Shown one piece after another: positions 14,782 through 46,264 of a stretch of DNA of 55,282 nucleotides. Both the position numbers and the translations under genes were made by a program. The DNA is taken from NCBI GenBank assembly GCA_013003715.1, contig JABDIN010000008.1:1-55282 (forward strand), read 5' to 3'. The stretch comes from Desulfobacteraceae bacterium. Lineage in GTDB: Bacteria; Desulfobacterota; Desulfobacteria; Desulfobacterales; Desulfosarcinaceae. The first letter of the stretch is position 1. Every line of letters begins with the position of its first letter. The notes below the pieces were generated by a model. It saw nothing but the letters and a program-made list of their open reading frames with translations. It did not search any database and was not told where the DNA came from.

Positions 14782-15062
14782 TACACTGAACTGATTCCCA
14801 TTTCCACAACCCCGGCAAGCTTCCCACCTTCTTGAACAATCCATGAATTGTCCGTGGTGATTCACGTCACCTGTAAATTTCCTGAGCCGGTGGTGCGAGG
14901 TTTTTTTAATTCCGGCGTCTATTGGATCACGAATTAACAGAATCCACGCCGGATGTCATTGAAACCTGCAGCAACACAAATGTTAACCGCCGGCCGATGG
15001 TTTTTGATTCTTAACCCGGCCGGTCAAAAAGTGGGCTGATGCGGTTAAGTCATTCGCAAATC

Positions 15063-15084
15063 CCGGCAATCGCCGGCTTTTTTT
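15063..15084 (+). terminator. Terminator-like hairpin in the leader of copy 1
   Basis: CCGGC-AATC-GCCGG is followed by seven T residues, 34 bases before the start codon at 15118. Its position upstream of the gene suggests an attenuator or the end of a short leader RNA. The matching place in copy 2 (about 18451-18470) keeps the CCGCCGGC core but has lost the T run and most of the stem. Confidence 0.5.
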
Positions 15085-15117
15085 ATTAATGCGGTTTTTA
15101 CACGTAAAGGAGATCCT

Positions 15118-18021: not shown

Positions 18022-18048
18022 TGTACTAATCCCGATATCTTCAACCGC

Positions 18049-18086
18049 GGGGGCGTCCTCAGATCCGGACGCCCCCGGCTCTTTTA
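18049..18086 (+). terminator. Intrinsic terminator after propeller lipoprotein copy 1
   Basis: GGGGGCGTCC / GGACGCCCCC, a perfect 10-bp stem with an 8-base loop, is followed after four bases by CTTTTAT. It is present in both copies of the duplication. Confidence 0.8.
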
Positions 18087-18504
18087 TCAAGCTGATATCA
18101 GATACAATCATCCCCGGAACTCACGCCCGATACCCAAATCCCGAAACAACGCCTACACTGAACTGATTCCCATTTCCACAACCCCGGCAAGCTTCCCCCC
18201 TTCAATACCAAACCATGAATTATCCGTGGTGATTCACACCACCTGTAAATTTCCTGAGCCAAAGGTGCGAGATTTTTATAATTTCGGCGTCTATTGAATC
18301 GTAAACGAATCAGCGCGTTTTTATGTAATTCGAATCCACGTCGGATGTCATTGAAACCTGCAGCTACATAAATATGAACCGGTGGACGGCGGCCTTTCAG
18401 TTTTAATTCGTACGGTCAAATGGAGGGACGATGCTTTTTTCGTTGGCAAATCCCAATAACCGCCGGCATTCAGTTAATGAGTTTTTACGCAAACAGGAGG
18501 TATC

Positions 18505-31081: not shown

Positions 31082-32002
31082 ATGAATAAATATAGACAAC
31101 AACGGATAAAATCCAATCTGGAGTTGCGTGCCCGGATCATTCGGGCCATTCGCCGCTTTTTTATCGACGACGGTTTTCTGGAGGTGGAGACGCCCAACCG
31201 GATTCCGGCGCCCGCCCCCGAAGCGCACATCGATGCAGAGGTGTCCGGGCAGTTGTATCTGCATACCTCTCCGGAGCTCTGCATGAAACGGCTGCTGGCG
31301 GCCGGCTATTCGCGTATTTTCCAGATCTGCAAATGTTACCGGCGGCAGGAACGGGGGCGAAAACACCTGCCGGAGATGACCCTTTTGGAATGGTATGAGA
31401 CAGGCAAAGATTACACACACATGATGGGCATGACCGAGCGCCTGCTTCAATTCATTGCCCGGCATTGCAGTTCTGGTGAAAAGATCAATTACCAGGGGAG
31501 ACATATCGACCTGCGCGGCCCATGGGATCGCTTGAGTGTCTGCCACGCGTTTGACCGGTATGCTGAGATCTCGATGTCCGAAGCACTTTTAAACGATCGT
31601 TTTGATGAGGTAATGGGAATCCAGATCGAACCCCGGCTGGGATGCGACAAACCGGTGTTCCTTTATAATTACCCGGCGCAATGCGGGGCGTTGGCCAGGT
31701 TGAAAACCGATGATCCCGCGGTGGCGGAACGGTTTGAACTCTATATTGCCGGATTGGAATTGTGCAACGGATTCTCAGAACTGACGGATCCGGCGGAGCA
31801 GCGGAGTAGATTCGAATATGAACTAAAGGTGAGGCAGGCCGCCGGGAAGGCCGACATCCCCTTGCCCGAGAAATTCCTCGCATCCCTCAAGGACATGCCC
31901 GAAGCCACCGGTAACGCCCTTGGCATGGACCGGCTGGTCATGCTCTTCACCGACACCTCTCATATCGATGATGTCGTGGCGTTTACCCCCGAAGAGTTGT
32001 AA
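31082..32002 (+). CDS. epmA: EF-P lysine lysyltransferase EpmA (GenX/PoxA)
   Basis: A 306-residue, catalytic-domain-only relative of class II LysRS. It begins at the catalytic domain (RARIIRAIRRFFIDDGFLEV) with no OB-fold anticodon domain, which separates EpmA from LysS. Motif 2 is FQICKCYRRQERG...EMTLLEWY and motif 3 is GNALGMDRLVMLF. EpmA attaches (R)-beta-lysine to a conserved lysine of elongation factor P and needs EpmB; neither efp nor epmB is in the window. The start ATG at 31082 has no obvious ribosome site, and 160 non-coding bases precede it. A MITE-like repeat lies 50 bases after its stop. Confidence 0.92.
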   Translation: MNKYRQQRIKSNLELRARIIRAIRRFFIDDGFLEVETPNRIPAPAPEAHIDAEVSGQLYLHTSPELCMKRLLAAGYSRIFQICKCYRRQERGRKHLPEMTLLEWYETGKDYTHMMGMTERLLQFIARHCSSGEKINYQGRHIDLRGPWDRLSVCHAFDRYAEISMSEALLNDRFDEVMGIQIEPRLGCDKPVFLYNYPAQCGALARLKTDDPAVAERFELYIAGLELCNGFSELTDPAEQRSRFEYELKVRQAAGKADIPLPEKFLASLKDMPEATGNALGMDRLVMLFTDTSHIDDVVAFTPEEL

Positions 32003-32051
32003 TCGGAAGGAGACTGATGGACACCGGCCGATTTATCCACCCGATAGCCTC

Positions 32052-32145
32052 AGGGCTCGCGAAAAACAACTTAACCTTTTCGAGGGCCAATCATCCCATT
32101 CAGAGGCGTTTCGAAAATTAGTCAATTTATTTTTGCGAGAACCTT
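32052..32145 (+). mobile_element. MITE-like element, copy A (94 bp)
   Basis: The left end AGGGCTCGCGAAAAACAACT and the inverted right end AAGGTTCTCGCAAAAATAAA are imperfect terminal inverted repeats. The interior (TTTTCGAGGGCCAATCATCC) matches copy B at 44964-45123 in opposite orientation; copy A lacks about 66 central bases, apparently lost between CGAAAA repeats. It carries no ORF of its own. The right end overlaps the last eight codons and stop (32122) of the minus-strand gene. Confidence 0.65.
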
Positions 32146-32685
32146 AAGGAGACCGGCGAACCCGGGTATCCATTGCCCGAAAAAACGGATCAGCGGTCCG
32201 AAAAAACGAATCGCCTCCGGATCCAGCACCCCTGTGCCGATCACGTATTTTCCAACGGCAACACCGCCAAAGGCATAGTAACCTATCGCAACACCACCCA
32301 CGGAGGCGGCACCCATCGCTACACCGCCCAATGCAATCAATCCCGTGGCAAGTCCACCGATACCGAAAAATATCCCGAGTGAAAATCCGCCGAAACAGAT
32401 GGCGCCCAATGTGAATCCGCCCACAGCGATGAACCCGCGTGCGAAACCGCCTATGGCGATAATGCCCGTGGCAAAGTCGCCAAAGGCAATGATGCCACGG
32501 GCGTGTCCCGCTTCATTGTTCCTGTCCGGATCCTTGCCGAAGGCAACGGCATACAGCGGGAATCCCCAGATAGTTTTCGTTGAACTTTTGCGCACACATC
32601 CCCGGCGCCTGTATGCTTTCAGGTCATCGATCTCCTGTTCCAATTTGTCAATCCGCTGTTGCTGGGGGTCTATGTTCTCAGGCAT
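32122..32685 (-). CDS. Glycine-rich repeat protein of unknown function
   Basis: A 187-residue protein. Residues 1-25 are a charged coiled-coil-like segment (QQQRIDKLEQEIDDLKAYRR). From about 60 to 150 there are about ten repeats of roughly 9-10 residues of type A-x-G-G-F/V-A-x-G-x-I (ATGIIAIGGFARGFIAVGGF). These could be small hydrophobic hairpins in a membrane or turns of a beta-solenoid. No signal peptide is seen. GAGGAG lies 9 bases before the ATG. The last residues LKVLAKIN and the stop come from the end of the MITE-like element, so the original C-terminus was probably different. No function can be assigned. Confidence 0.75.
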   Translation of the reverse strand: MPENIDPQQQRIDKLEQEIDDLKAYRRRGCVRKSSTKTIWGFPLYAVAFGKDPDRNNEAGHARGIIAFGDFATGIIAIGGFARGFIAVGGFTLGAICFGGFSLGIFFGIGGLATGLIALGGVAMGAASVGGVAIGYYAFGGVAVGKYVIGTGVLDPEAIRFFGPLIRFFGQWIPGFAGLLKVLAKIN

Positions 32686-32865
32686 ATGAGACGTCTCCTC
32701 TTCAACTTAGTTTTTGCGGTACATCGCTGTATATTAATAGCCTTGCATTTTTTCTAGCTATGAGCCCTTGAGCATGAGATAACACTACGGAATGAAAAAC
32801 TATCCAACACGCGGCGTTATGGGAAAAACTCCCCGGTCCCTTAACCATATACATCTCGATACGTA

Positions 32866-34065
32866 CTACACAGACAATCGCTCTGACAACAATGCGTAGG
32901 CCAGGATCATTCCTGCGATAAATCCCACAGCCAGGCTAGAGGCCAATGTGATGCCCAGCATCAATAGCGGTACGAACATCTCTTTTCGGGTCTTCATATC
33001 CAGGATGGTGAGGGCAAGCTGTCCGCCTGCAAACATCAATAGCACACCCAGTATTGAGAAGGGAATCATGGACACCACGGACAGGATCTGATGTCCGAAA
33101 AAAAGGGCCATGGTCAAGAAAATACCGCCGATGATCAAATTTGAACCGGCACTGCGCGCACCGAAACGGTAGTGGGCCGCCAGGCCGCCCGCACCGTGAC
33201 ACAAGGGCATGCCGCCAAAAACAAAACTCAACAAATTGCCCAGGGCCATGGTGATGCAGAGGGCACGATGGGTGACTTTCCGGGAATGTTCTCCGAAATA
33301 AGACGCGGAAAGGTCGGCATCGGCTATGACTGCATTACCGATGGTCATGGGTATCTGTGGTAACACCAGCGCAAAGATGGCGACGACGAAATCGGCTTTT
33401 CCCGGAAAGGCAACGGGAAAAAATCTGGGGAACACCGGTTGTATGGAGATGTCTTCCCTGCCCGTGTCGATGCCGAATATCCAGCCGATGAGGATGCCTG
33501 AACAGATGACGACAAGGGCTGCCGGCATTTTTTTGTTTTCCAATAATAATAATGTCACCAGGAAACCGATGATTCCGATCACGATACCCACGGGAACCGG
33601 TCCGATATGTTGGAGAAGGAGATAAGGTTCGGCGGCATTTTTAAGCTGCTGAATCTGTGATTGGCCGAGAATCATCCGGACACCGCCGGACAAGAGTATG
33701 ATGCCTGTCGATAATTGGACCCCCCTGATCACGGATTTGGGCGCATACTTCCCGATGATATCAATTGCCCCGGTCAATCCGATGATCATAAGGATGCTCC
33801 CGACCATTAATCCCGCGGCCATGACCTGCCCGGTACTCATGGCCGTGGCAATGGCATATGCCCCGATGACCTTCATGGGCTGTACCGGGGTGGTGACACC
33901 ATAGTAAAACCCCGTTAAAATATAGAAAACGCCGATGGAAAAGAATACCCCTGTGGGGTTCAGACCGTTGACGACAATCATACCGACGGCAATCGGCAGC
34001 AAGGTACCCAGATCCCCCAGTGAGCCGGCCAATTCAAGCCTGTTGAATTTATAGGGAAGAGACAA
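32866..34065 (-). CDS. MOT1-type molybdate/sulfate transporter-like protein
   Basis: A 399-residue membrane protein with about ten helices. The two MOT1 signatures are visible: PVQPMKVIGAYA in the first half and PQIPMTIGNAV in the second, followed by GGMPLCHGAGGLAAHYRFGA. MOT1 proteins are SulP-related carriers, several of which move molybdate with high affinity. The start is a TTG at 34065 (MSLPYKFNRLELAGSLGDLG) with GGAG 9 bases upstream. It is the distal gene of a minus-strand run that includes, farther upstream, two MoeA-type genes, so a role in molybdate supply is reasonable. Sulfate as substrate cannot be excluded. Confidence 0.82.
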   Translation of the reverse strand: MSLPYKFNRLELAGSLGDLGTLLPIAVGMIVVNGLNPTGVFFSIGVFYILTGFYYGVTTPVQPMKVIGAYAIATAMSTGQVMAAGLMVGSILMIIGLTGAIDIIGKYAPKSVIRGVQLSTGIILLSGGVRMILGQSQIQQLKNAAEPYLLLQHIGPVPVGIVIGIIGFLVTLLLLENKKMPAALVVICSGILIGWIFGIDTGREDISIQPVFPRFFPVAFPGKADFVVAIFALVLPQIPMTIGNAVIADADLSASYFGEHSRKVTHRALCITMALGNLLSFVFGGMPLCHGAGGLAAHYRFGARSAGSNLIIGGIFLTMALFFGHQILSVVSMIPFSILGVLLMFAGGQLALTILDMKTRKEMFVPLLMLGITLASSLAVGFIAGMILAYALLSERLSV

Positions 34066-34127
34066 TGTTTTCTACTCCGAAAGATGAAAGTTGGTTGAGA
34101 AAAATCATATGGAATCCAGTATGAACA

Positions 34128-34928
34128 TCAAATCACGAAATGCATCATCCGCAGGATCTCCGGATAATCCTCATTCTCATATTGAACCGCTTTGGGTGAT
34201 ATCAGCTCCGCTCCGGGATAAAACGATGCTTTATAGGCTTCCTGAAAATCATTGTAGTGTATCGTCAAGGTAAAAAACTCAGGTATTTCAGGCACGAAAT
34301 TCTTCCCCGGATCGGCCAGGGCGGTCCGTGCGGATTCCTTTATTTTTTCAATACTCGATTGCGGGCTGATATTGATTGTTGACCCACCCACGCAACGCTT
34401 TACCGCCACCGTATGAATTTCAGGGAGCATTTCCCGGGCATCGGCGCATATCATCTCATCGCCGGTGACCAATACGACAGGGACTTTTTCATAAAATGAG
34501 GTAAGCATATTGAAGGACAGCTCGGAGGCAAGGTCGCCATTCAAGGTAATTTTGGAAATCAGCTTTCCTTTGAAGGTGTGCGCCAATGGATTGCCTTCCC
34601 TGCCGCCAGGGGCATGATAACCAATAAAAAACGATGCATTGAAGCTCTTGTCCACGCCCTGCATCATCCGGTAGGGATGGCCGCTCCATCCCCGGATCAA
34701 CGCCGCCTCATCCGGCAGGTGGTCGCCGATTAAATTCCGTGCACTCCCGTGAGCGTCCTTGATGACAATTTCTGTGGCGCCGGCCTCTTTAGCCCCCTCA
34801 CAGGCGGCGGCCACCTCTTTGGCCATTTGAACCTGGAAATCTTTGTAGTCCGGATGATCCTTGTTCGTCTCACTGCCGGCGGTAACACCCGTAACGCCTT
34901 CAATATCGGCGCTGATAAATACTTTCAT
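34128..34928 (-). CDS. M55-family D-aminopeptidase (DppA-like)
   Basis: A 266-residue protein with the M55 layout. Zinc ligands correspond to D8 and E10 (MKVFISADIEGVTGV), H60 (VIKDAHGSARN), H105 (FIGYHAPGG) and a later Glu near 136; H117 (PLAHTF) fits the catalytic His. DppA releases D-amino acids from short peptides and forms a decamer in Bacillus. GGAGG lies 6 bases before the ATG. It sits 19 bases downstream of an MFS transporter gene, so the two are probably co-transcribed and may handle D-amino-acid peptides from cell-wall turnover; UppP is two genes upstream. Confidence 0.9.
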   Translation of the reverse strand: MKVFISADIEGVTGVTAGSETNKDHPDYKDFQVQMAKEVAAACEGAKEAGATEIVIKDAHGSARNLIGDHLPDEAALIRGWSGHPYRMMQGVDKSFNASFFIGYHAPGGREGNPLAHTFKGKLISKITLNGDLASELSFNMLTSFYEKVPVVLVTGDEMICADAREMLPEIHTVAVKRCVGGSTINISPQSSIEKIKESARTALADPGKNFVPEIPEFFTLTIHYNDFQEAYKASFYPGAELISPKAVQYENEDYPEILRMMHFVI

Positions 34929-34947
34929 CTGATGCCTCCATAATTTC

Positions 34948-36147
34948 CTATGTATTTTCCATCGATTTTACCGGCTCCTGATGAAGGCATAGTGCGAAAA
35001 TCACGGTGCCGGCCGCCATCATAACACTGCCGGCGACAAATGCGTCCCGCAACTGCATTGTGTCCATCATCAGACCGGCCAGCACTGATCCGGTAAGCAT
35101 ACCCATGCTTTGGGCCATGGTGAGCAACGCCATGACCGATCCCATGGCTTCGGTCAGAGATCCTTTGTATACGGCAATGGCCATGTGCGCGGGCATGGAT
35201 ATGCCTCCCCCGATGCCGAAGACAACGCTGGCAATCACAAGATCTTCAACCCCCCGGGCCCAGCGAAAAAAAATAACCGACAAGGTTACGACCACACCAC
35301 CGATGAAAACCATCTTTTTCCGGTCCCATTGATCGGCCAGAAACCCGAACGGGGTGTTGAAGATGCCGCCCACCAGCACCAGCAGGGTTACCAGCACCCC
35401 GATGACGGAACTGGAGAGGTTAAATTCAGTATCGCAGAACAGCGGTAAAAATCCCCATATGATGCCGATACAGGCAGTGTAGACATAGCGATAAATAAAC
35501 AATCCGGCGATTGTCCGGTCCCTGATCAGGATGCGCCATTTTGCCTGTGGTTTCAATTTGGACCCTGTTTTTTCAGATGACGTCGGCGGCAGAAAAAACA
35601 GACTCAGACAAAATCCCGCAAATGCCAGAAGCCCCATTACGATAAAAGATGCCTGGAGAGTGAACTTATCCCGGATGACGCCGCCGAGTATGGGCCCCAG
35701 ACTCAATCCCAGGAACATGGACATGTTAAAGAGGCCCATGACAGATCCTTCCTTTCCTTCCGGTGTGATATCACCCACATACGCCTGTACCACAGGCATG
35801 ATCATGGCCGAGGCAATGCCCTGGACAAAACGTAAAACGATGAGCATTTCCACGGATGTCGAAAATACGAACCCGATGGAAATCACGGCATAAAAGAACA
35901 GGCCGATGACAATAAAAGGTTTCCTGCCGGACTTGTCCGATAACCTTCCGAACAAGGGCAGAAAGAAGGTTCGGGAAAGTGCGAATGCACCGAAAATCAT
36001 ACCGATATAGAGTCCGCTCGCCCCCAGATCATGGGCGTACACCGGTAGAAGCGGCACCACGATCCCCATCCCCATCACGGCGGCGAAAATGGAGAAAAAC
36101 AGGGTGCCGAAAACTTTTTTATCAAGAAGCCGGATGGATTTCGTCAA
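34948..36147 (-). CDS. Major facilitator superfamily transporter
   Basis: A 399-residue, 12-helix carrier. The loop 2-3 motif A is GRLSDKSGRKPFI, and motif B/C-like segments (LRFVQGIASAMIMPVVQAYV and LGLSLGPILGG) mark it as a drug:H+ antiporter-1-like member. The substrate is unknown; these proteins export drugs, metabolites or siderophores. It overlaps functionally ambiguous neighbours: UppP is 19 bases upstream and the M55 aminopeptidase 19 bases downstream, so it belongs to one operon. Confidence 0.88.
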   Translation of the reverse strand: MTKSIRLLDKKVFGTLFFSIFAAVMGMGIVVPLLPVYAHDLGASGLYIGMIFGAFALSRTFFLPLFGRLSDKSGRKPFIVIGLFFYAVISIGFVFSTSVEMLIVLRFVQGIASAMIMPVVQAYVGDITPEGKEGSVMGLFNMSMFLGLSLGPILGGVIRDKFTLQASFIVMGLLAFAGFCLSLFFLPPTSSEKTGSKLKPQAKWRILIRDRTIAGLFIYRYVYTACIGIIWGFLPLFCDTEFNLSSSVIGVLVTLLVLVGGIFNTPFGFLADQWDRKKMVFIGGVVVTLSVIFFRWARGVEDLVIASVVFGIGGGISMPAHMAIAVYKGSLTEAMGSVMALLTMAQSMGMLTGSVLAGLMMDTMQLRDAFVAGSVMMAAGTVIFALCLHQEPVKSMENT

Positions 36148-36166
36148 AATGGATTCCTAGATCAGG

Positions 36167-36994
36167 TCAGTCCAGATACCCGACGATGATGGTGATGGCA
36201 CCGACAGCGAAACAATATGGTGCGAACAGGTGGAGCTTGCCCCGTTCCACCAGCCGCAGTAAAATTATCAATGCCAGATAACCTGATATGGTGGCGGCGG
36301 CGGCACCAAGCAATACATGTACGGATGCCATGGTGGTATGAATTTCAGGGGATTTCAATCCCAGGATCAAGGCCCCGATAATGGCCGGAATAGAGAGCAA
36401 GAAAGAAAACCGGCCGGCAAGCTTGCGGTCGATGCCCAGGAGCAGGGCGGTTGAGATGGTGGAACCGGATCGGGAGATTCCGGGGATAATGGCCAATCCC
36501 TGTATTATTCCGATGATCAGGGAATGGGTGATGGTCATTTTTTGGGGGACGGTTTTTCCGCTCAATAGCCTGGGCAAGGATATGGTGATGCCGGTGACCA
36601 GCAGCATAAGGCCCACCACCGCCGTGGAACCGAAGATGACATCCGCAATATGCCGGAAAAACAACCCTAAAACAACCGTGGGGATGGTGCCCAGAACAAT
36701 GAATACACAGAGACGGACATTTTCATTCTGATGGTAGGCATTGCTGAAACCGCCGGTTTTTCGAACCAGACCGGGAATCTTGAACATGGTACCAACGAGT
36801 TCCAAGATCTCTGCACGAAACACGGCCAATACGGCAACCAATGTACCCACATGCACGCTGATATCAAACAGCAGTTCCGGTTCGTTCATGCCGAACAGGC
36901 TTTGAAACAACACAAGATGTCCTGAACTGCTGACCGGTAGAAACTCAGTGAGACCTTGTACAACACCTAATACAATCGCTTGTAAAAATTCCAC
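36167..36994 (-). CDS. uppP: Undecaprenyl-diphosphatase UppP (BacA)
   Basis: A 275-residue integral membrane phosphatase. The two active-site regions are intact: LTEFLPVSSSGHL (15-27, with Glu17 and the Ser/His group) and PGISRSGST (171-179, with Arg175). It dephosphorylates undecaprenyl diphosphate to recycle the lipid carrier for peptidoglycan and other surface polymers, and confers some bacitracin resistance. Length and motif order are standard. It lies 41 bases downstream of rtcB and 19 bases upstream of the MFS gene, in a tightly packed minus-strand series. Confidence 0.95.
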   Translation of the reverse strand: MEFLQAIVLGVVQGLTEFLPVSSSGHLVLFQSLFGMNEPELLFDISVHVGTLVAVLAVFRAEILELVGTMFKIPGLVRKTGGFSNAYHQNENVRLCVFIVLGTIPTVVLGLFFRHIADVIFGSTAVVGLMLLVTGITISLPRLLSGKTVPQKMTITHSLIIGIIQGLAIIPGISRSGSTISTALLLGIDRKLAGRFSFLLSIPAIIGALILGLKSPEIHTTMASVHVLLGAAAATISGYLALIILLRLVERGKLHLFAPYCFAVGAITIIVGYLD

Positions 36995-37035
36995 GCAATC
37001 CGGTTCCTTTCCGTGTTCGTCGAATGGTTACCCCA

Positions 37036-38469
37036 TCATCCCTTCACCACCGCAATGGGTCTCAATTTGGCCACTTTTTTTGAAATCCCCGCCCCATGGA
37101 CCACGTTCACCACCTGGGAAATATCCTTGTATGCCTCGGGCATCTCTTCGGCCAGGGTGGACCGCCCGGTCCATCGCACCAGGATGCCCTTATCCGCCAA
37201 TTCGCGGTATATGGCCCTGCCCTTGCTCTTTTTCTTGGCGGCCTTGCGGCTGAGCACCCGGCCCGCACCATGGCAGGTGGAACCGAAGGTTTGGGCCATG
37301 GCTTTTTCCGTCCCCACCAGCACATAGGACGCCGTACCCATGTCTCCCGGGATCAAGGTGGGTTGACCGGTTTGCCGATAATCCGCGCAAATCGCATCAT
37401 GCCCGGCGGGAAAAGACCGCGTGGCCCCCTTGCGATGTACACAGAGCTCCCGCTTTTCGCCATCCACCACATGGGTCTCTTTCTTGGCGATGTTGTGGCA
37501 TACATCATAAATCAGATCCATACCAAGCGCCCTGGGACTGATGCCGAGTACCTGCTGGAAAACCTCCCGCGACCGGTGAAGCAGCAGTTGCCGGTTCGCC
37601 CATGCATAGTTGGCCGCGCACGCCATGGCGCTTAAATATTGACGGCCGGCATCGGATTGGATCCTGGCGCAGGACAATTGGCGATCCGGTACGGCCATAC
37701 CGATGGACTTCACATGACGGGTCATGAAGGCGAGGAAGTCGTCGCAGACCTGATACCCGAACCCCCGGGACCCGCTGTGGAGCATCAGGGTGATCTGCCC
37801 CTCAAACAATCCGAAGACCGCTGCGGCGTCCGCATGATAAACGGTGTCCACCACCCCGATCTCCAGAAAATGGTTTCCTGAACCCAGGGTCCCCAATTGT
37901 TTTTTCCCTCGTTCCAGGGCACGCTCGCTAACGGCATCCGGGTCCGCACCGTCCAGACAGCCGCCGTCTTCGGTGTGTTCGATATCCAAATCAGTACCGA
38001 AACCCTGTCGAACCGCCCAGGGACTGCCCTCTTTCAGCACCCGTTTTTCCTCGGCACTGTTTAATCGAAGTGATCCCTGGGACCCGATACCCGAAGGAAT
38101 ATGACGATACAAAGCATCCACGAGGTCCTCGATTTTCGCTTTGACCTCCGTTTCCACCAGTTGGGTGCCGGCCAGCCGTACACCGCAATTGATGTCATAC
38201 CCCACACCGCCGGGTGACACCACACCGGTCTCCCAGTCAAAGGCCGCCACACCGCCGATGGGAAAACCGTATCCCCAGTGGATATCCGGCATGGCAAGGG
38301 AGGCGCCGACAATACCGGGCAGCTCGGCGACATTGGCGACCTGCTGTAGTGCCTTCTCCTGTTTTATGGCGTTCATCATACCGGCATCGGCGTATACGAT
38401 GCCGGGCACGTTCATTCGTCCGGTTTTCGGAACTTCCCACCGGTATTTATCCAAACGCTTAATGTTCAT
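37036..38469 (-). CDS. rtcB: RNA-splicing ligase RtcB
   Basis: A 477-residue protein with the full RtcB active site: GVGYDINCGVRL (D92, C95), LGSGNHFLEI, LMLHSGSRGFG and the guanylylated-His motif TCHGAGR followed by SRKAAKK. RtcB joins 2',3'-cyclic phosphate or 3'-phosphate RNA ends to 5'-OH ends using GTP and Mn2+, in tRNA or rRNA repair. The archease gene lies 155 bases upstream on the same strand. No RtcR regulator or RtcA cyclase is present, so control differs from the E. coli rtcBA system. No intein is present. Confidence 0.95.
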   Translation of the reverse strand: MNIKRLDKYRWEVPKTGRMNVPGIVYADAGMMNAIKQEKALQQVANVAELPGIVGASLAMPDIHWGYGFPIGGVAAFDWETGVVSPGGVGYDINCGVRLAGTQLVETEVKAKIEDLVDALYRHIPSGIGSQGSLRLNSAEEKRVLKEGSPWAVRQGFGTDLDIEHTEDGGCLDGADPDAVSERALERGKKQLGTLGSGNHFLEIGVVDTVYHADAAAVFGLFEGQITLMLHSGSRGFGYQVCDDFLAFMTRHVKSIGMAVPDRQLSCARIQSDAGRQYLSAMACAANYAWANRQLLLHRSREVFQQVLGISPRALGMDLIYDVCHNIAKKETHVVDGEKRELCVHRKGATRSFPAGHDAICADYRQTGQPTLIPGDMGTASYVLVGTEKAMAQTFGSTCHGAGRVLSRKAAKKKSKGRAIYRELADKGILVRWTGRSTLAEEMPEAYKDISQVVNVVHGAGISKKVAKLRPIAVVKG

Positions 38470-38624
38470 CGGATGACTCCGTGATCCGGCTGTTCAGATG
38501 GTTGAATAACTGAGGGGTCGGAGAGTTTTCCCAATTGAGCCGCGAGCTGGATAACGAAAAACTCACCACACCCTCAAATAACTACCTTAATAATATATCT
38601 TGATGTTCTACTCCCCCCCACGCA

Positions 38625-39062
38625 TCAGGTATCCAGAATCACCAGGGCTTCCCAGCAGCTCTTTCCCTGCTTTACCTCGGCCTGGTGAAAGGTGACGGCC
38701 TTGATCTCGTGAACGATCACGTGCAGATCCGGATCAAAATCATCATATGCAAGGGTGGCCGTGAGATGATTGCCGGAAATATCAATTTCCGGTATGCGGC
38801 CCACGAGTTTCTCCTCGCCGTTCCAGAGATAAAGCAATTCTCTCAACCAGTTCACGAGCAGCTCCGGTTTATCCTCACCCTGAATTTCAACGGTCAATCG
38901 GTGATCGCCCTTGATGGTCCGCAACGGCCCGATCAGGTCGAACATGGCCAGGGCGGCATGTGCAAACAATTGTCGGATGTCTTCGCCGAATACATGAATC
39001 CCGATATCCGCTGTGTGATCGATCAGTGTGTACGGAATCGCCGGAGACTTTTTTTGTGCCAT
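38625..39062 (-). CDS. Archease, RtcB cofactor
   Basis: A 145-residue protein of the archease family. The signature DHTADIGIHVFG (15-26) holds the acidic metal ligands D15 and D19; an additional Asp/Glu pair in the C-terminal part fits, and the protein ends in a conserved hydrophobic strand (WEALVILDT). Archease speeds RtcB guanylylation and allows multiple turnovers and alternative NTPs. It precedes rtcB on the same strand, an arrangement that supports a dedicated RNA-repair unit. Confidence 0.9.
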   Translation of the reverse strand: MAQKKSPAIPYTLIDHTADIGIHVFGEDIRQLFAHAALAMFDLIGPLRTIKGDHRLTVEIQGEDKPELLVNWLRELLYLWNGEEKLVGRIPEIDISGNHLTATLAYDDFDPDLHVIVHEIKAVTFHQAEVKQGKSCWEALVILDT

Positions 39063-39160
39063 GTGAGCCTGGTTCGTAAATTATCAAATGATCTTTTTCA
39101 ATCACCATGAATGTATGGGGATAACCACCTGGGAATCATGCCGGGCAACACCCGGACCAT

Positions 39161-41104
39161 CTATACGTCGATTATGTCACCGGTCCTTCGGGTATCATAC
39201 CCGCCGAGCCGGTTCACGCGTTGTTTGAAGGACACCGAGTTGATGGTATCCAACAATATGGATATGAAGTGCGAGTCGTAATAAATGTCGGGAATTATGA
39301 TATCGTATTGTTCGGTGACCACGGGAACGAAATCCAGGCCCAGGGCCATCGCCGCCGCGGCGATCCCCAATCCCGCATCCACCGCACCGCTCTGGACAGC
39401 CACCGCCACGGCCATGTGGGTAAATTCCTCGGTATGGTAACCAGCTACCTGTTCCGGCTTTATTTGCAATTGCTCCAGCCGATAGTCCAGTAAAATACGG
39501 GTACCGGACCCGCCCTGGCGGTTGATGAAGCGGATATCTCCACCGGCCAGATCCTCGATGCCGGTAACGCCCCTGGGATTTCCTTTCGGAACGATAAGGC
39601 CCTGCTCCCGCATCACCAGATGCACCAGCTTCACCGGAACCTCCGGCAGGAATTTCTTGATGTAGGAAATATTGTATGATCCGTCCGTAACGTCCAGCAG
39701 ATGCGTACCGGCCATATGGCAGACGCCTTTTTTGACGGCCATCAGCCCGCCCATGCTGCCGACGTGGCTGGAGGAAAGGGTGACACCGCTGCTGTGCGCG
39801 CGAAGTTCATCGGCCAGCACATCAAGGGTATTGTCATGACTGCCAACCACGACGATGGTATTGTTCAATTGTTCCCGTCCGGCCAACAGCTCGGCTTCCA
39901 CGGTATCGCCCGGTTTTAACCCCTCGTGGTGATTGGGTATCCTGATTATACCGTCGGCCTCGGTAATACTGGTGATACAGCCCGCCGCACGCGGAAGGGG
40001 CGTTGCCACGATTTGCCCGCCCACCTGCCCCAGCTTGACGCGGACAAATTCTTCGAGGCCGAGTTTGGAAGCGATTTTCCGTGTGGGCCGGACATGGACC
40101 TTCTGCCGCTCCGGCGCGGGCCGGCCCTGCATCCGGTAAAGCAATGGCTGCACAAACTGTTCGAAGGCCAGAATGGCGGATACCGGGTATCCGGGGATGC
40201 CAAAAACAGGTTTTTTTTCAATCTCACCGATGATGAGCGGCTTACCCGGCATCATGGTCACCCCGTGCACCAACACGCGCCCGAGTTGGGATATCACCGG
40301 TTTCGCGAAATCCTCGGATCCTGCCGATGATCCGCCGATGGTCATGATCAGATCAACATCGCCTGTGGCGGCAACAAGCACCGTTTGTTTGATATGATCG
40401 AGGTCGTCCATGACCATTTCCTGCCGGTTGCATACCGCGCCGCAGGCCTCCGCAAGGCAGCCCAACACATATGAATTGGTTTCGATTACCTGGCCCGGTT
40501 TCAATTCCGCCGGTGAGGTGCGACGCCAATCCACAAGCTCCGATCCCGTGGGGATGATCAGGACTTTCGGCCTTTTTCTCACGGATACCTCATAGATGCC
40601 GGCGGAAAGCAACGCCCCGATGCAATACGGCGTCACCACATGGTTCCGCGGGTACAGCAATTGAGTGGCGACGATATCCTCACCCATTTTCCGGACATGC
40701 TGCCAGGGGAATACCGGCGACTCGATCTGCAGACGGCGGTCATCGACCTCATTCACATGTTCGATCATGATGACGGCGTCGGTGCCGCCGGGCAGCACAT
40801 GACCGGTATTCACATATACGGCATCCTCCCCCGCAACCAGGGTTTTGGGGTGTCCGGGTTTGGCGCCGAACGTGGTTTCCGCCTTTACGGCAATGCCGTC
40901 CATGGCCGCTGAATGAAAATTCGGTGAAGAAACCACGGCGCTCACCGGCGAGGCAAGCACCCGGCCGACGGCTTCAGTGGCCGGAACAACCTCGGATTCA
41001 ATGGTATCCCGGCAGGGAAATGCATCAAACATGATTTTCCCGGCCTCTTCGATGGACCGCATTTCCAGGAATACATTACGTTTATGTCTTTGCTTTGGTT
41101 TCAT
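39161..41104 (-). CDS. MoeA-like molybdopterin protein fused to a PBP-like domain
   Basis: A 647-residue protein from the ATG at 41104 (MKPKQRHKRNVFLEMRSIEE); a GTG at 41173 would add 23 residues without a ribosome site. Residues to about 405 are MoeA, with NFHSAAMDGIAV, TGHVLPGGTDAVIMIEH, TGSEL, TIGGSSAGSEDF and GIPGYPVSA. From about 430 to the end is a substrate-binding-protein-like domain (PF12727 type) with SSHVGSMGGLMAVKKGVCHM and NRQGGSGTRILLDYRL. MoeA inserts molybdenum or tungsten into adenylylated molybdopterin. The fused domain is thought to bind an oxyanion such as molybdate or tungstate. It follows a second MoeA by about 80 bases. Confidence 0.9.
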   Translation of the reverse strand: MKPKQRHKRNVFLEMRSIEEAGKIMFDAFPCRDTIESEVVPATEAVGRVLASPVSAVVSSPNFHSAAMDGIAVKAETTFGAKPGHPKTLVAGEDAVYVNTGHVLPGGTDAVIMIEHVNEVDDRRLQIESPVFPWQHVRKMGEDIVATQLLYPRNHVVTPYCIGALLSAGIYEVSVRKRPKVLIIPTGSELVDWRRTSPAELKPGQVIETNSYVLGCLAEACGAVCNRQEMVMDDLDHIKQTVLVAATGDVDLIMTIGGSSAGSEDFAKPVISQLGRVLVHGVTMMPGKPLIIGEIEKKPVFGIPGYPVSAILAFEQFVQPLLYRMQGRPAPERQKVHVRPTRKIASKLGLEEFVRVKLGQVGGQIVATPLPRAAGCITSITEADGIIRIPNHHEGLKPGDTVEAELLAGREQLNNTIVVVGSHDNTLDVLADELRAHSSGVTLSSSHVGSMGGLMAVKKGVCHMAGTHLLDVTDGSYNISYIKKFLPEVPVKLVHLVMREQGLIVPKGNPRGVTGIEDLAGGDIRFINRQGGSGTRILLDYRLEQLQIKPEQVAGYHTEEFTHMAVAVAVQSGAVDAGLGIAAAAMALGLDFVPVVTEQYDIIIPDIYYDSHFISILLDTINSVSFKQRVNRLGGYDTRRTGDIIDV

Positions 41105-41183
41105 AAGGATAGACGTCCACCCACTTTTTCGAATAATTCCGTCCGGCTCTGCCGATCCCCGGAATCGGCTCACTACAATGATC

Positions 41184-42413
41184 TTAAAAAGGCATCACCG
41201 ATACTGTCGTTCCCGCATCCAGCCCTTCGCTGTTCATGTCCACGGCAATCAGGCCGTCCGCTTCCACCATGGTGTGAATCAGGCCGGATTTTCCCAGAAC
41301 AGGTTCGGCATAGCGTTGCCCCTCCTTTTCCCTGAACCGCACCCGGACATAATCGATGCGGCCCATGACCGACGACAGATTCCGGCTCAATATGGCGGGT
41401 ATGGGCCTTACCGTGCCCATTGACGGCAGAGCGCCGCGTAAATGGTGGATAAATGGTTTCACCACCACCGCAAACACAACCATGGCCGATACCACATGTC
41501 CGGGCAACCCCCACACCGGCTTGCCGGCACACCGGGCAAGAATCGTCGGTTTTCCCGGGCTGATGGTAATGCCGTGCACAAGAATCCGGCTGTCTGGAAG
41601 TGCGTGCAAGGTATCGATGGTATAATCCCTCAATCCCACACTGCTGCCCCCGGAAATAAACACCATATCGCATTTCCCAAGGGCCTTCCGGCAGACACTG
41701 ATCAAATCCCCGGCATTGTCTTTCACAATCCCGAAGGAAACAGGTATGGCACCGGCCGCCGCCAATTGACCGGACAAGGTGTAGCTGTTCACATCCCGGA
41801 CCTGGCCAGGCGCCGGAATGCTGTCCACCGGCACAATCTCATCTCCGGTGGAGATGATTCCGACAACCGGTTGCCGATATACAAGGGCATGTGTCCTGCC
41901 CATGGCGGCCAGCAACCCGGCTTCCTGGGGCCGGATGGGTTTTCCACATGTAAGGAGAACTTCTCCGTGTTTGAAATCCTCGCCCTTCTCCACCATGTTC
42001 TGGCCGGGTGCCACACTTTTATACACCTCGATGGTGTGCTCATCGAGAACGTCCGTATGCTCAACCATGACAATGCCGTCCGCGCCCTGGGGCAGCATGC
42101 CGCCAGTGGATATTTTGGCCGCTTCACCCGGTTTGATGGCGAACCCGGGAACATCTCCCATGGAAACGGTACCCTTGACCGTCAGATAGGCCGGGTTGGC
42201 TTCAGACGCCCCGTAGGTCGATGCACTCCAAACTGCGAACCCATCCATGGTGGAGCGATGGAATTCAGGAAGATCCGTATCCGCAACGATCTCCTCGGCG
42301 GTTACCCGCCCCAGGCTGTCCGCGATCTCAACCGTTTCGGCCGGCATCATGGAAAAACCATTGATGTGCTCGAAAACCTGATCAAGCGGTGTGACTTTAA
42401 AGAATTCTTTCAT
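41184..42413 (-). CDS. moeA: Molybdopterin molybdenumtransferase MoeA
   Basis: A 409-residue stand-alone MoeA. Key segments: FHRSTMDGFAV, STGGMLPQGADGIVMVEHTD, GIISTGDEIVP, FISGGSSVGLRDYT and PGKPTILA...GLPGHVVSAMV. It has the usual four-domain layout with the C-terminal domain IV. Two MoeA-type proteins in a row often mean one serves molybdenum and the other tungsten, or different enzyme classes, in anaerobes; which does which cannot be told here. The start has no strong ribosome site. The gene leads into the MoeA-PBP gene and follows a dehydrogenase gene by 113 bases. Confidence 0.93.
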   Translation of the reverse strand: MKEFFKVTPLDQVFEHINGFSMMPAETVEIADSLGRVTAEEIVADTDLPEFHRSTMDGFAVWSASTYGASEANPAYLTVKGTVSMGDVPGFAIKPGEAAKISTGGMLPQGADGIVMVEHTDVLDEHTIEVYKSVAPGQNMVEKGEDFKHGEVLLTCGKPIRPQEAGLLAAMGRTHALVYRQPVVGIISTGDEIVPVDSIPAPGQVRDVNSYTLSGQLAAAGAIPVSFGIVKDNAGDLISVCRKALGKCDMVFISGGSSVGLRDYTIDTLHALPDSRILVHGITISPGKPTILARCAGKPVWGLPGHVVSAMVVFAVVVKPFIHHLRGALPSMGTVRPIPAILSRNLSSVMGRIDYVRVRFREKEGQRYAEPVLGKSGLIHTMVEADGLIAVDMNSEGLDAGTTVSVMPF

Positions 42414-42526
42414 TTGAATATAGTATCTATCCGGAAGTTGAACATTAATACGATCTCATCGCATCCTTCTGCCGATGCCGTTATCCCCGCAAAGCCGAGT
42501 GTCCGGAAACGAACGGAAAAATAGGC

Positions 42527-43504
42527 CTATCTGTTAGCACAACACGCTTCCCAGTTCAAACAATTGGGGGGTTTGTCGCCGTTTAATCCGGCCATCAGGT
42601 TATCAGCAGCCATTCGGGCCATCAGCGTGCGGGTTTCAATGGTGGCGCTGCCCATATGGGGCAGCAGGATTACATTGTTCAACCCGGCCAATCCGGGCGC
42701 CAGTCGAGGCTCGTTCTCATATACATCCAAACCGGCACCGGCAATGTCAAGCCCTTTCAGCGCTGCCACCAGCGCCGCCTCATCAACCACCGGCCCGCGG
42801 GATGTATTGATCAGAAAACAAGTGGATTTCATCTTTTGGAACTCTTCCGCACCCACCATATGAGTGGTTTCCGGTGACAAGGGGACGTGCAGGGAGATAA
42901 AATCCGACCTGCGGTATAAGGTGTCCGCATCCACGTAGGTCAATCCCAGGGTCCTCTCGGATTCAGCGTCCAATGGCCGTCGGGAGTGATAGATAATCTT
43001 CATATCAAATCCGGCGGCCCGTCGCGCCACGGCGGCTCCGATTCTCCCCATACCGAATATTCCCAGCGTCTTGCCCGTCACGTGACTGCCGAGGAAATGA
43101 AGCGGTGACCAGAATTCGAATTTTCCAGCGCGTGTAAATTTATCGCCTTCCACTAACCGGCGGCCGATGGCCAGTATCAACCCGAAAGCGATATCCGCCG
43201 TGGCATCGGTGAGCACACCGGGTGTATTGGTCACCAGGATGCCGCGCGTTGAGGCGGCTTCCACATCGATATTGTTATACCCGACACCGAAGTTGGCAAT
43301 GACTTTAAGCGCCGGTGACTGATCCATTACCGATGGATCGATGGTATCCGTGATCATGCACAAAAGCCCCTCTTTTCCCTTCACACCGGCAAGAATCTCC
43401 TGTCGATCCATGGGATGGAACTTTGTGTTGGAGGTAACCTCATGCTCCTGGCGAATTGTCGATAAAACTTGCTCCGGAATTTTTCCTGTAACAAATACCT
43501 TCAT
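42527..43504 (-). CDS. D-2-hydroxyacid dehydrogenase (glyoxylate/hydroxypyruvate reductase type)
   Basis: A 325-residue NAD(P)-dependent dehydrogenase. The Rossmann loop is GKTLGIFGMGRIGAAVARRA. The catalytic triad follows: Arg in NTSRGPVVDEAALV, Glu in DVYENEP, and His in LLPHMGSAT. The N-terminal substrate domain with FGVGYNNIDVEAASTRGI is typical of the GyaR/GhrB group, which reduces glyoxylate and hydroxypyruvate. AGGAG lies 5 bases before the ATG. The C-terminal CCANR has two adjacent cysteines, which is unremarkable. It begins the long minus-strand block. Confidence 0.9.
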   Translation of the reverse strand: MKVFVTGKIPEQVLSTIRQEHEVTSNTKFHPMDRQEILAGVKGKEGLLCMITDTIDPSVMDQSPALKVIANFGVGYNNIDVEAASTRGILVTNTPGVLTDATADIAFGLILAIGRRLVEGDKFTRAGKFEFWSPLHFLGSHVTGKTLGIFGMGRIGAAVARRAAGFDMKIIYHSRRPLDAESERTLGLTYVDADTLYRRSDFISLHVPLSPETTHMVGAEEFQKMKSTCFLINTSRGPVVDEAALVAALKGLDIAGAGLDVYENEPRLAPGLAGLNNVILLPHMGSATIETRTLMARMAADNLMAGLNGDKPPNCLNWEACCANR

Positions 43505-43611
43505 CAGCGCTCCTAAAAATATATGACTTGACTAAAAAAACGGGTTCTTTAAGAATCAGGCGACTTTGCTTTTGATTCAGATATACCATTTTTTCTCCAG
43601 GAATGAAAACC

Positions 43612-43794
43612 ATGGGTAAATGCATCAGGCATCCGGACAGGGAGACACATCTGGTCTGCATGAAGTACAACGATCACCTCTGCGATGAGTGCGCGACATG
43701 CCGGGATCCGGAACTGTATTGCAAATTCCGCACGGCATGTCCGATCTGGTTTGTTTACAAGGAAAAGAACCGGAAAATACGGGATGCCTCTTAA
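43612..43794 (+). CDS. Small cysteine/histidine-rich B-box-like zinc-finger protein
   Basis: A 60-residue protein from the ATG at 43612; an ATG at 43603 would add MKT but overlaps the AGGA ribosome site. The pattern C-x2-H, then C, then C-x2-C-x2-C, C and C (KCIRHPDRETHLVC...CDECATC...YCKF) resembles a B-box-type zinc finger. Short proteins of this kind are known to me mainly from Desulfobacterota annotations, where they have no established role. It starts a three-gene operon, 13 bases before the next gene. Confidence 0.7.
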   Translation: MGKCIRHPDRETHLVCMKYNDHLCDECATCRDPELYCKFRTACPIWFVYKEKNRKIRDAS

Positions 43795-43807
43795 TGAAAG
43801 GACTTGT

Positions 43808-44359
43808 ATGAACGCATATGTGGATATCGATGAAACCGGGTGGCAATTTATCCATAAACTCTATGATGAAACAGGCGGCAGCCTGGAAGGACAGGCATCC
43901 ATGTACAATGTGGGTGATACGCTGGGCCTGGATAGATCAGCGGCTTCGGCGGTAGCGGAAAAACTCATCGGCTGGGGTCTCATCGAGATCAAGACCCTGT
44001 CCGGCGGTATCGGCATCACCGAGGAAGGAAAATCCCAGGTGGACCGAAAATTCGGTTCCGGCGTTTCCGGTGGCACCTCGGCGCAACGGTTGACCGATGC
44101 CATCGTGCTGGAGGAGGGATTGCATCCCGTCATCTCGCAGTTGACCTCGGATCTTAAATCCGGCATCGGTGACCTGAAGCTCGGCGTTGATTCATCGACC
44201 GAGCTCACCGCCGACATTAAAACCACGGAGGTCCAGATGACCTCTTCCCGTCCCAAAACCGCCATCATACGGGAAACGCTGAAATCCATAAAATCCGTAT
44301 TGGTCGGTTCCGCCGCCAAAAATATCATCGAATCCATCGATAGACTGCTGGGGGAGTGA
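43808..44359 (+). CDS. Winged-helix-like protein of unknown function
   Basis: A 183-residue protein from the ATG at 43808 (MNAYVDIDETGWQFIHKLYD), chosen for AAAGGA 5 bases upstream; longer in-frame readings from 43685 overlap the previous gene and lack a site. Residues about 5-85 fit a winged helix: a helical part, LGLDRSAASAVAEKLIGWGL as recognition helix, then IEIKTLSGGIGITEEGK as wing. The rest is polar and helical, ending in an Ala/Ile/Lys-rich helix. It may be a DNA- or protein-binding regulator of the operon. I do not recognise the family. Confidence 0.7.
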   Translation: MNAYVDIDETGWQFIHKLYDETGGSLEGQASMYNVGDTLGLDRSAASAVAEKLIGWGLIEIKTLSGGIGITEEGKSQVDRKFGSGVSGGTSAQRLTDAIVLEEGLHPVISQLTSDLKSGIGDLKLGVDSSTELTADIKTTEVQMTSSRPKTAIIRETLKSIKSVLVGSAAKNIIESIDRLLGE

Positions 44360-44360
44360 G

Positions 44361-44987
44361 ATGGAAAGCAACTACGCCGGCATCGTCCGGAACAATATTG
44401 AAGCCCTGTACCGCCGCCTGCCGGCCGATCTCGCACAACGGACCGGTGCAAAAAAAGATGCCGGCGGCAAGGTGTTTACGCTTGATGCATTCGGAAAATC
44501 CTGCCGCATCAGTGCCGGGGGTATATTCCTGGATGACGAGCCCCAAACCGATGTCCTGGGCATTCTGATTTCACTGTATGCGCTGAACGCCATACCGGAG
44601 GAGATGGTCATCGAACCGTGGAAAGCATTCAAGGCGTTTCCGGATGTTATGCCTTATGTGGGCGCCTTCACCTCCCATACGGAGCAGATCCTTATCGCTT
44701 ATGAGGACAAGATTAAAAAAAACAGGACCGGGATCGTCAGCACCTTGAACGGCGACCCGGATCATGGCAGCGATGGCGGAGATTATTCTTTTATGGTCCG
44801 CCCGCTCCCTAAAATTGCACTTTGTTACATCGTTTATGAAGCGGACGAGGATTTTCCGGCGTCCGTGACCTGCCTCTATTCCAGCAACGCCAACCATTTC
44901 CTGCCCAATGACGCGCTGGCGGATGTGGGGGAATACACATCGAAAAGGATACTGGAGCTTCTTAGGGTTCGCGCAACAATAAATTGA
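44361..44987 (+). CDS. DUF3786-domain protein
   Basis: A 208-residue protein starting one base after the previous stop, so translationally coupled. The C-terminal pattern ALCYIVYEADEDFPASVTCL...SSNANHFLPNDALADV matches DUF3786 (known pattern: aromatic-rich strand, GDEEFPP, then the sHFLP motif). Function is unknown; the family is mostly found in strict anaerobes. The last codons (LLRVRATIN and TGA) are the end of MITE-like copy B, so the natural C-terminus was probably replaced. Confidence 0.8.
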   Translation: MESNYAGIVRNNIEALYRRLPADLAQRTGAKKDAGGKVFTLDAFGKSCRISAGGIFLDDEPQTDVLGILISLYALNAIPEEMVIEPWKAFKAFPDVMPYVGAFTSHTEQILIAYEDKIKKNRTGIVSTLNGDPDHGSDGGDYSFMVRPLPKIALCYIVYEADEDFPASVTCLYSSNANHFLPNDALADVGEYTSKRILELLRVRATIN

Positions 44988-45123
44988 CAAGTTTTCGTGG
45001 GTCAGGCGCCCCGTCAGCAAGGCGCGAAAATGAAGGAATAGTCTACCTATTTCGTATTTTCGCAACACCGCTGAAGGGGATGGTTGGCCCTCGAAAATGT
45101 TAAGTTATTTTTTCGCGAGCCCT
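44964..45123 (-). mobile_element. MITE-like element, copy B (160 bp)
   Basis: Ends AGGGTTCGCGCAACAATAAA (plus strand, 44964 on) and, inverted at the other side, AGGGCTCGCGAAAAAATAAC form imperfect terminal inverted repeats of about 25 bp. Inside, GCGAAAAT...ATTTTCGC (45016-45064) makes a second inverted repeat. No ORF is inside. Copy A at 32052-32145 is a deletion derivative in the opposite orientation. It lies between the convergent DUF3786 and proB stops and provides the stop of the former. Confidence 0.7.
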
Positions 45124-45145
45124 TGGATAGCTGACCGGATATTCA

Positions 45146-46264
45146 TCAGGTGATGACGAGGTTATCGCGATGGATGATTTCATCGTAGGGTTTGCCGCCC
45201 AGGCAGCTTTTGATCTGAGAGGATTTCAGACCTTTGACCAGCCGTATATCGGCGGCGCTGTAGTTGACCAGACCGATCCCCAATGCGTCGCCGATTTTTG
45301 TCCTGAAGGTCACCGGCGCGCCGATGCCGAATTCTCCGTCAATGTCAACTACGCCGCTGGGCAACAGGCTTTTGCCCTTCTCCAATAGGGCCGCTGCAGC
45401 CCCGTCGTCGATAATAAGGCTGCCCTTTGGCGTCAAGGTATAGGCGATCCAGCACTTCCGGCTCGCCATCTTTTCTGCCTTGGGTAGAAAATAGGTGCCG
45501 TGGGGATGGCCGCTGAACAGTTCAAGCAGGATGTCGGGTGCATCACCCCGGGCCACGATCACGGGGATTCCGGCGGAAGTCACCTTTTTTGCCGCGTTGA
45601 CTTTACTCAGCATGCCACCGGTGCCCAATGTGCCTGGGATATCATCGGCATAATCCACGATTTTCCTACTGAATGTCGATACCCGGGGTATTAATTGCGC
45701 ATCGGGCTGTGTGCGCGGATCTTTTGTGTACAGGCCATCGATGTCCGTCAGGATAAACAGAAAATCCGCGTCCATCAGCAGCGTGATCATGGCGGCCAGG
45801 TTATCGTTGTCCCCCAGCCGTATCTCCTCCACACTGATGGTGTCGTTTTCATTGATGATGGGCACAACCTCCCAGGAAAGCAGGGTTTGCAGTGCATTTC
45901 GGGCGTTTAGGTAGCGTTTTCGATTGTTGAGGTCTTCGCTGGTGAGCAGAATCTGGGCCACCTTTTTATCATGGCGGCCAAAAACGGATTCATAAGCGTT
46001 CATCAACCCGCTCTGACCGATGGCGGCAATGGCCTGCCGCCTGGGGATTTCATCCGGCCGCCGGGACATGCCCATTTTACGGAGTCCGGCGGCCATGGCG
46101 CCTGAGGTAACCAGCAGAACCTCCACTCCACGGTCGATCAATGTACAGATCTGACTGGAAATGGCGTCTATCACGTCCAGGTTGAGACTGTTCCGGGCCG
46201 TCAGAATATTGCTGCCCACTTTCACCACAACACGCTTGGCTTGGTGTAAACGTTCATTCGTCAT
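45146..46264 (-). CDS. proB: Glutamate 5-kinase
   Basis: A 372-residue enzyme: amino-acid-kinase domain (about 8-255) with VVVKVGSNIL, LLVTSGAMAAGL and NENDTISVEEIRLGDNDNLA, and a C-terminal PUA domain (about 275-372). It phosphorylates glutamate in the first step of proline synthesis and is normally feedback-inhibited by proline. The start codon follows the proA stop by 4 bases with no separate strong ribosome site (TGAAGCC), so translation is probably coupled to proA. The proA-proB order is the reverse of the common proBA order. Confidence 0.95.
   Translation of the reverse strand: MTNERLHQAKRVVVKVGSNILTARNSLNLDVIDAISSQICTLIDRGVEVLLVTSGAMAAGLRKMGMSRRPDEIPRRQAIAAIGQSGLMNAYESVFGRHDKKVAQILLTSEDLNNRKRYLNARNALQTLLSWEVVPIINENDTISVEEIRLGDNDNLAAMITLLMDADFLFILTDIDGLYTKDPRTQPDAQLIPRVSTFSRKIVDYADDIPGTLGTGGMLSKVNAAKKVTSAGIPVIVARGDAPDILLELFSGHPHGTYFLPKAEKMASRKCWIAYTLTPKGSLIIDDGAAAALLEKGKSLLPSGVVDIDGEFGIGAPVTFRTKIGDALGIGLVNYSAADIRLVKGLKSSQIKSCLGGKPYDEIIHRDNLVIT

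Follow-up and report, generated by a model that had tools for sequence, protein, structure and literature searches.

A palindromic miniature inverted-repeat transposable element of Desulfobacterales-type bacteria ends two unrelated genes and is probably mobilised by ISAzo13-family transposases

Background

In a 55,282-nucleotide stretch of DNA from a Desulfobacteraceae bacterium (contig JABDIN010000008.1 of assembly GCA_013003715.1, positions 1 to 55,282; here called the window), two genes for unrelated proteins take their last codons and their stop from the end of a short repeat, giving the tails LKVLAKIN and LRVRATIN. Both do so in the same frame, and the question raised by this locus is whether the repeat is built to enter genes at their 3' ends in that frame, as the original prediction from the sequence alone had proposed, or whether the agreement has another origin. 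We consider it very probable that the repeat is a palindromic miniature inverted-repeat transposable element (MITE) of Desulfobacterales-type bacteria which is mobilised in trans by ISAzo13 transposases, and that the window genes are two tolerated hits which came to agree in frame by chance.

Results

Two copies of the repeat end two window genes

The window holds two copies of the repeat in opposite orientations, with ends and interior in common (57 nt at 88% in inverted pair I1 and 40 nt at 85% in I2), as had been predicted. The full-length copy of 158 bp lies at 44965-45122 on the + strand (element limits are given without the 3-bp duplications) with its A arm at the low end and its B arm at the high end, has a predicted fold of -79.5 kcal/mol (z -8.9), and is flanked by a target duplication which reads TTA on the low side (44962-44964) and now, with one change, TTG on the high side (45123-45125). 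The other copy, at 32053-32144 on the - strand, is internally deleted to 92 bp with its A arm at the high end (read on the - strand), and its duplication reads TCA on the low side (32050-32052), one base off the TAA of the high side (32145-32147). A DUF3786 gene (44361-44987, +; PF12654, 106 bits) has its last codons and its TGA inside the full-length copy, the filled site ending in SKRILELLRVRATIN, while a gene for a glycine-rich repeat protein (32122-32685, -) ends in GFAGLLKVLAKIN at the deleted copy and gave no match in a Pfam search of its protein. The prediction that an element end supplies the tail and stop of two unrelated genes is thus borne out.

Empty sites were predicted by joining the flanks with one duplication kept. 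The DUF3786 protein would then end in SKRILELLR (GEYTSKRILELLR), or in ELLG with the duplication of the other side retained, and its relatives end in RILALV (GEYTSKRILALV; Desulfosarcina alkanivorans, L144) and IIEIIEG (GEYTSKKIIEIIEG; a Desulfobacterales metagenome-assembled genome, L145). For the glycine-rich protein the predicted end is GFAGLLRLSGG, and two of the six relatives compared (open reading frames (ORFs) of the + strand only) have the ends DPEAVEFFKTLWYRITT and DPEAVSFFKSLVSRYFER, before the touched region. In the window, then, the element tails stand in place of one to five residues, and the relatives seen are without them.

A multicopy family with a 3-bp target duplication

The repeat is not confined to these two copies and goes far beyond a chance likeness. 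In its own genome (5.5 Mb in 115 contigs) there were 25 blastn matches, nine of them near full length, with some copies giving two to three matches, and together with end-pattern matches this yielded a table of 24 copies or fragments, several of which (L022-L025, L045, L048) are pieces of an end, about 20 nt long, and may in some cases be due to chance, the reversed control of the end pattern itself yielding 6 matches. Pattern matches with three mismatches (C3:16473, C3:21501, C50:11448, C78:2562 and C78:5143) were left out of the 24. Beyond it, 15 of 59 relatives carry matches (16 of 60 genomes in all, in some of which one end alone matches), and these genomes come from the own family (f1) as well as six others in the order. 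Two size classes, 156-158 bp and 179 bp, recur and account for most of the divergent copies in the comparison. In genome G048, from another family of the order, 40 scored copies are 94-100% identical to the query copy and are therefore young; the copies of the window's own genome look like relics, many being truncated and no ISAzo13 transposase having been found there. Being short and multicopy, with terminal inverted repeats and a target duplication and without a transposase gene, the repeat has the features of a MITE, as suspected from the outset.

The young copies of G048 were used to read the target. The three flanking bases are equal on both sides in 27 of 30 loci, and 41 copies of standard length (157-159 or 179 bp) have 17 TTA/TTA, 17 TAA/TAA, 2 TTA/TAA, 2 TAA/TTA and 3 other combinations, so matched rather than mixed duplications predominate (34 of 41 exact; Fisher P = 1.7e-6 with the 3 others set aside). 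A C precedes the duplication in 26 of these copies and a G follows it in 24. The repeat makes a 3-bp TTA or TAA duplication in a CTWAG target. In a 31-row table of copies, three rows of which are alternative pairings of one copy, 21 duplications are exact. Repetitive extragenic palindromic (REP) elements and their REP-associated tyrosine transposases (RAYT) are not known to make a target duplication, and were ruled out on the presence of one here.

ISAzo13 elements with the same ends and target

The ends and target of the repeat recur on insertion sequences (IS) of the ISAzo13 family. Matches to the ISAzo13 profile PF07592 were present in 4 of 10 genomes, and a protein search found relatives of the transposase in 36 of 291 genomes of the order. 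G019 has three identical ISAzo13 elements of 1942 bp with the end GGGTTCAGTCAGAAATAAGTTCAC, flanked by TTA in CTTAG. At L166 (G086) the IS lies between C TTA and TTA G, an arrangement seen also at L153, L157 and L160, and encodes two transposase ORFs of 261 and 301 amino acids (aa), the second of which (PF07592 at 382 bits, NF033519 at 396 bits) stops inside the terminal repeat; the IS end on this transposase 3' side is identical to a MITE end over the first 18 nt. In the corresponding ends of L165, L166, L167, L168, L169, L171 and L173, 23-26 of 27 nt agree with one or another MITE end, compared to 18 of 27 in L174, these eight loci having been chosen for a visible end from 30 transposase loci scanned. 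As a control, 90 sites in five of these loci at which TNA precedes GG were scored without removing the IS ends; the top scores (25, 24, 23 and 23) are those obtained for the IS ends of these loci, and the next was 19 with a mean of 11.9. One matching IS terminus was seen in G016 and in G284 and both termini in G086, the second being diverged, and these genomes with the best-matching IS have 154, 64 and 52 MITE ends respectively. Sharing ends, duplication and target with the repeat, ISAzo13-family elements of related genomes are its likely mobiliser.

A second type of short-repeat or IS end, (T)TAGG(G/A)CCTCGG.AAAAA.., was noticed near ISAzo13 genes (L154 1044, L158 613) and near the MITEs (L082 3663-3837).

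Genes end in the element in all three frames

To score frame, the end of the host stop was counted from the first element base, in sets of 30, 24 and 41 copies and of 31 rows which partly overlap. Six genes end inside a copy: the two window genes (L001 and L015) at +23, frame 2; the aminotransferase gene of L014 and the gene of L097 at +18, frame 0; the uvrA gene of L075 (G009, 33-2885), in a 179-bp copy, also at +18, frame 0; and the gene of L095 at +31, frame 1. The first four enter at A ends and the last two at B ends, so all three frames (2:3:1) and both element ends are used. The TGA at +23 (in TTGAC) used by the window genes is found in both own-genome rows of a 12-row alignment; the remaining 10 rows, which come from other genomes, lack it. 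There is no sign of a preferred frame, and a shared frame between two copies would be expected by chance about once in three. The preferred frame of the original prediction is accordingly abandoned, the copies being spread without regard to frame.

Copies are rare in gene interiors and sometimes lie at stop codons

Gene calls were made with a home-made codon model with cut-offs of 12 to 25 bits and not with a standard gene finder. On these calls, a host stop lies within -10 to +31 of 12 of 41 G048 copies compared to 5 of the 48 CTWAG sites that lie outside gene interiors (P = 0.03), an interval which was picked after seeing the data; on empty sites with joined flanks the 3'-end excess is slightly weaker (11 of 40 against 5 of 48, P = 0.053), and earlier versions of the test gave 9 or 10 of 30 against 0 of 11 or 0 of 9, and 6 of 25 against 5 of 45. 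Closeness to gene 3' ends is thus weakly above expectation (P 0.03-0.05). The predicted insertion at gene 3' ends stands to this extent, while most copies (29 of 41) lie outside this interval of any called stop.

No called ORF spans any of the 41 copies, but this test is blind to genes cut by the element and was for that reason repeated on joined flanks, where the target of one copy in 41, L103, falls within a called gene, 4 nt from its called start, compared to 64 of 112 CTWAG sites. A read-through palindrome of the type of the Rickettsia palindromic elements (RPEs) was rejected on these two counts. L051 (C71) and L009 (C73) of the own genome have their empty sites near the 5' end of called ORFs, and as joining their flanks lengthens the ORFs (to 305 and 346 aa) these copies may have cut or shifted a gene start. 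For the other ten two-ended copies of that genome the target is in an ORF in the window copies only, 8 and 20 nt from the 3' end. These data are consistent with insertion into CTWAG, harmful hits being removed or avoided.

A CTWAG site includes TAG or TAA, so that a stop codon which serves as target is rebuilt. The host stop is inside the target in 6 of 41 G048 copies (L091, L098, L103, L111, L116 and L119, with the stop end at 0 or +1; a set overlapping but not identical to the 41 of the duplication count), compared to 2 of the 48 non-interior CTWAG sites used above (P = 0.14), and also in L064 (G011) and in L045 of the own genome, where the gene stops at the TAG in the target. An SSB gene of G016 ends in DDIPF immediately ahead of a 1.49-kb element that has MITE ends, its stop rebuilt. 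Where a target hit has rebuilt the stop in this way, the protein is probably unchanged.

This 1.49-kb element (L207 427-1916, G016:C157) has two MITE A arms, a TAA duplication and a passenger ORF of 214 aa which gave a weak, below-cut-off Pfam match and no transposase match, and it looks like MITE-carried cargo; it was considered as an autonomous element and rejected on the lack of a transposase in this ORF. A further interval of 2.5 kb (L128 1928-4430, G048:C146) is bounded by two MITE-type ends which face outward and belong to different classes, with TTA on both outer sides, and carries an ORF that by eye is dehydrogenase-like, though the pairing of its ends may be chance; it was likewise rejected as an autonomous element, as no ORF looked transposase-like (no family search being made).

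A covarying hairpin with a strand bias

In the 12-row alignment, from 11 genomes, the hairpin has 61 paired positions, of which 22 pairs are changed on both sides (shuffled mean 11.5), and 94.0% of alignment cells are paired compared to 86.9% when shuffled and 31-45% when slid; the number of pair types is not above the shuffles (46 against 45.0, 211 of 500). The 179-bp class has 74 pairs, 14 of them changed on both sides. The strand on which the A arm comes first is the better folded in each of the 30 copies compared, with a margin of only 0.1 kcal/mol in L009, and arm-to-arm transitions on this strand are G-T 160 against A-C 51, counts which are not independent as copies within one genome are related. 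An Rfam search of the window from 31900 to 45300 gave no match up to E 1.

Surroundings of the window copies

Both window copies sit between convergent genes, which agrees with the low harm predicted for these positions. The neighbour of the deleted copy encodes a tRNA-synt_2 (PF00152) protein (31082-32002, +), and that of the full-length copy a protein with AA_kinase and PUA domains (45146-46264, -), which is probably glutamate 5-kinase. Elsewhere in the window, at 14782-21192, are two long blocks of degenerate 150-156-bp tandem repeats about 3.4 kb apart, perhaps a duplicated beta-propeller gene.

Discussion

The repeat is best explained as a non-autonomous, fully palindromic MITE whose ends, target and duplication point to ISAzo13 transposases acting in trans. 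These would recognise the end GGG(C/T)TCGCGCAAAAATAA, insert into C|TWA|G and duplicate TWA, and insertions inside genes would be removed by selection or avoided, leaving as tolerated sites those between genes, at stop codons and within the last codons. At a stop codon the stop would be rebuilt and the protein probably left as it was, while a gene hit a few codons earlier would run into the AT-rich end, which offers stops at +1 (with a TTA duplication), at +18 and, in the own-genome subfamily, at +23; as stops follow so soon, the tail would be short. The frame common to the window genes would then be a matter of chance.

Several observations weigh against this account. PF07592 has no match in the own genome (G000) or in G048, a 79% complete assembly with the youngest copies seen, so that we infer the mobiliser from other relatives. 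Among eight genomes with related transposases, MITE ends are few in G062, G075 and G215, with one match each in two of the eight, and absent in G223 and G091. The second IS end fits the MITE less well (17-21 of 27 nt in L153, L166 and L169), the IS of L169 and L174 are flanked by TTA on one side and TAA on the other with no matching duplication, and in the 30 loci scanned L170 and L172, which are among the closest transposases, show no such end and other ends occur in the majority of the more distant loci. An exact duplication is kept in 4 of 12 two-ended copies of the own genome, and the two sides differ by one base in both window copies. Lastly, the UvrA of G009 was shortened by its copy, being 951 aa against 978, a loss of about 27 codons relative to the empty-site end, and therefore some tails replace more than a few residues.

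Other origins of the repeat and of the gene ends were weighed against mobilisation by ISAzo13. IS1031-like IS5 elements make a 3-bp TNA duplication, the same in length and form as that found here. Related eukaryotic groups (PHIS) use TWA or C|TNA|G, according to passages of PMC4482050, and on these grounds the MITE might belong to the IS5 family; PF13586, however, has no match in 5 genomes, the 10 matches to PF01609 in 5 genomes include none owning matching ends (that of L138 has such ends nearby, but adjoins a separate 179-bp MITE copy), and ISAzo13 elements match directly, which makes an IS5 origin most improbable. We give equally little credence to an element built for insertion at gene 3' ends in one frame, adding a fixed short tail, for although the window copies agree in frame and tail pattern and a modest 3'-end excess exists, before and after joining of the flanks, the six genes use three frames and both ends, the +23 TGA is missing from the other genomes aligned, and most G048 copies (29 of 41) lie outside -10 to +31 of any called stop.

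The hairpin allows a further reading, namely that the host keeps the repeat as an RNA hairpin (a structure of the 3' untranslated region, a terminator or a small RNA) and that it is not merely selfish. Covariation extends across the whole hairpin and one strand is consistently the better folded, with its excess of G-T transitions; no Rfam family matches, however, gene ends are entered in either orientation, the near-identical young copies suit selfish spread and pair types are no more numerous than in shuffles, and we regard a host function of this kind as unlikely. Template switching at quasi-palindromes could give covariation without selection, and the strand-biased hairpin could reflect either selection for the folded strand or template switching combined with a strand bias. 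Returning to the selfish MITE, it is a possible though doubtful extension that the CTWAG target with its duplication provides for harmless landing on stops, that the 158-nt hairpin is kept by paired changes on one strand, and that the element works in part through a folded single strand, whether RNA or single-stranded DNA.

Correia/NEMIS elements and RUP make a TA-type duplication and differ from the present MITE in sequence, and PIF/Harbinger and NuwaII use a different transposase. Passages of PMC2229807 describe the 155-bp Correia/NEMIS of Neisseria and the pneumococcal RUP as MITEs with stops in all frames which are almost only intergenic, and in passages of PMC4482050 PIF/Harbinger and NuwaII have a TWA duplication, NuwaII using C|TNA|G, but these are eukaryotic and the likeness is of target only. 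RPEs, in passages of PMC2229807 and PMC10969869, are likewise palindromic repeats of about 150 bp able to add residues, but they are found within genes, in frame, and translation reads through them, whereas the present MITE has stops soon after its ends. Closest in effect are QMITE1 and QMITE2 of Coxiella burnetii, which in passages of PMC5896051 are also MITEs over functional gene 3' ends, supplying the stop or residues and including '(STOP)'-only cases; they differ in host, QMITE2 has direct repeats of 7-9 bp (in a passage of PMC10969869), and the passages concerned do not mention a CTWAG target. The ISAzo13 IS (PF07592, NF033519) have the end sequence, TWA duplication and CTWAG target of the MITE, but are autonomous, about 1.9 kb long and with a two-part transposase, while the MITE is without a gene. 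MITEs fused to genes are described in passages of reviews (PMC2229807, PMC10969869), and a paper holding both 'ISAzo13' and 'MITE' uses the latter in general terms in the passages seen. No description of this family or of an ISAzo13 MITE was found in a weak search, which had most subscription journals and ISfinder outside it. MITEs that end genes are thus already known, and this family is, so far as such a search can suggest, apparently undescribed.

Conclusions

What had looked like a two-copy repeat is a defined mobile family that follows a target rule and is linked to ISAzo13. Its strand-biased, covarying hairpin is an oddity that can be tested. A transposon with a stop codon in its target can occupy gene ends at little damage, as in the SSB gene which keeps its own C-terminus.

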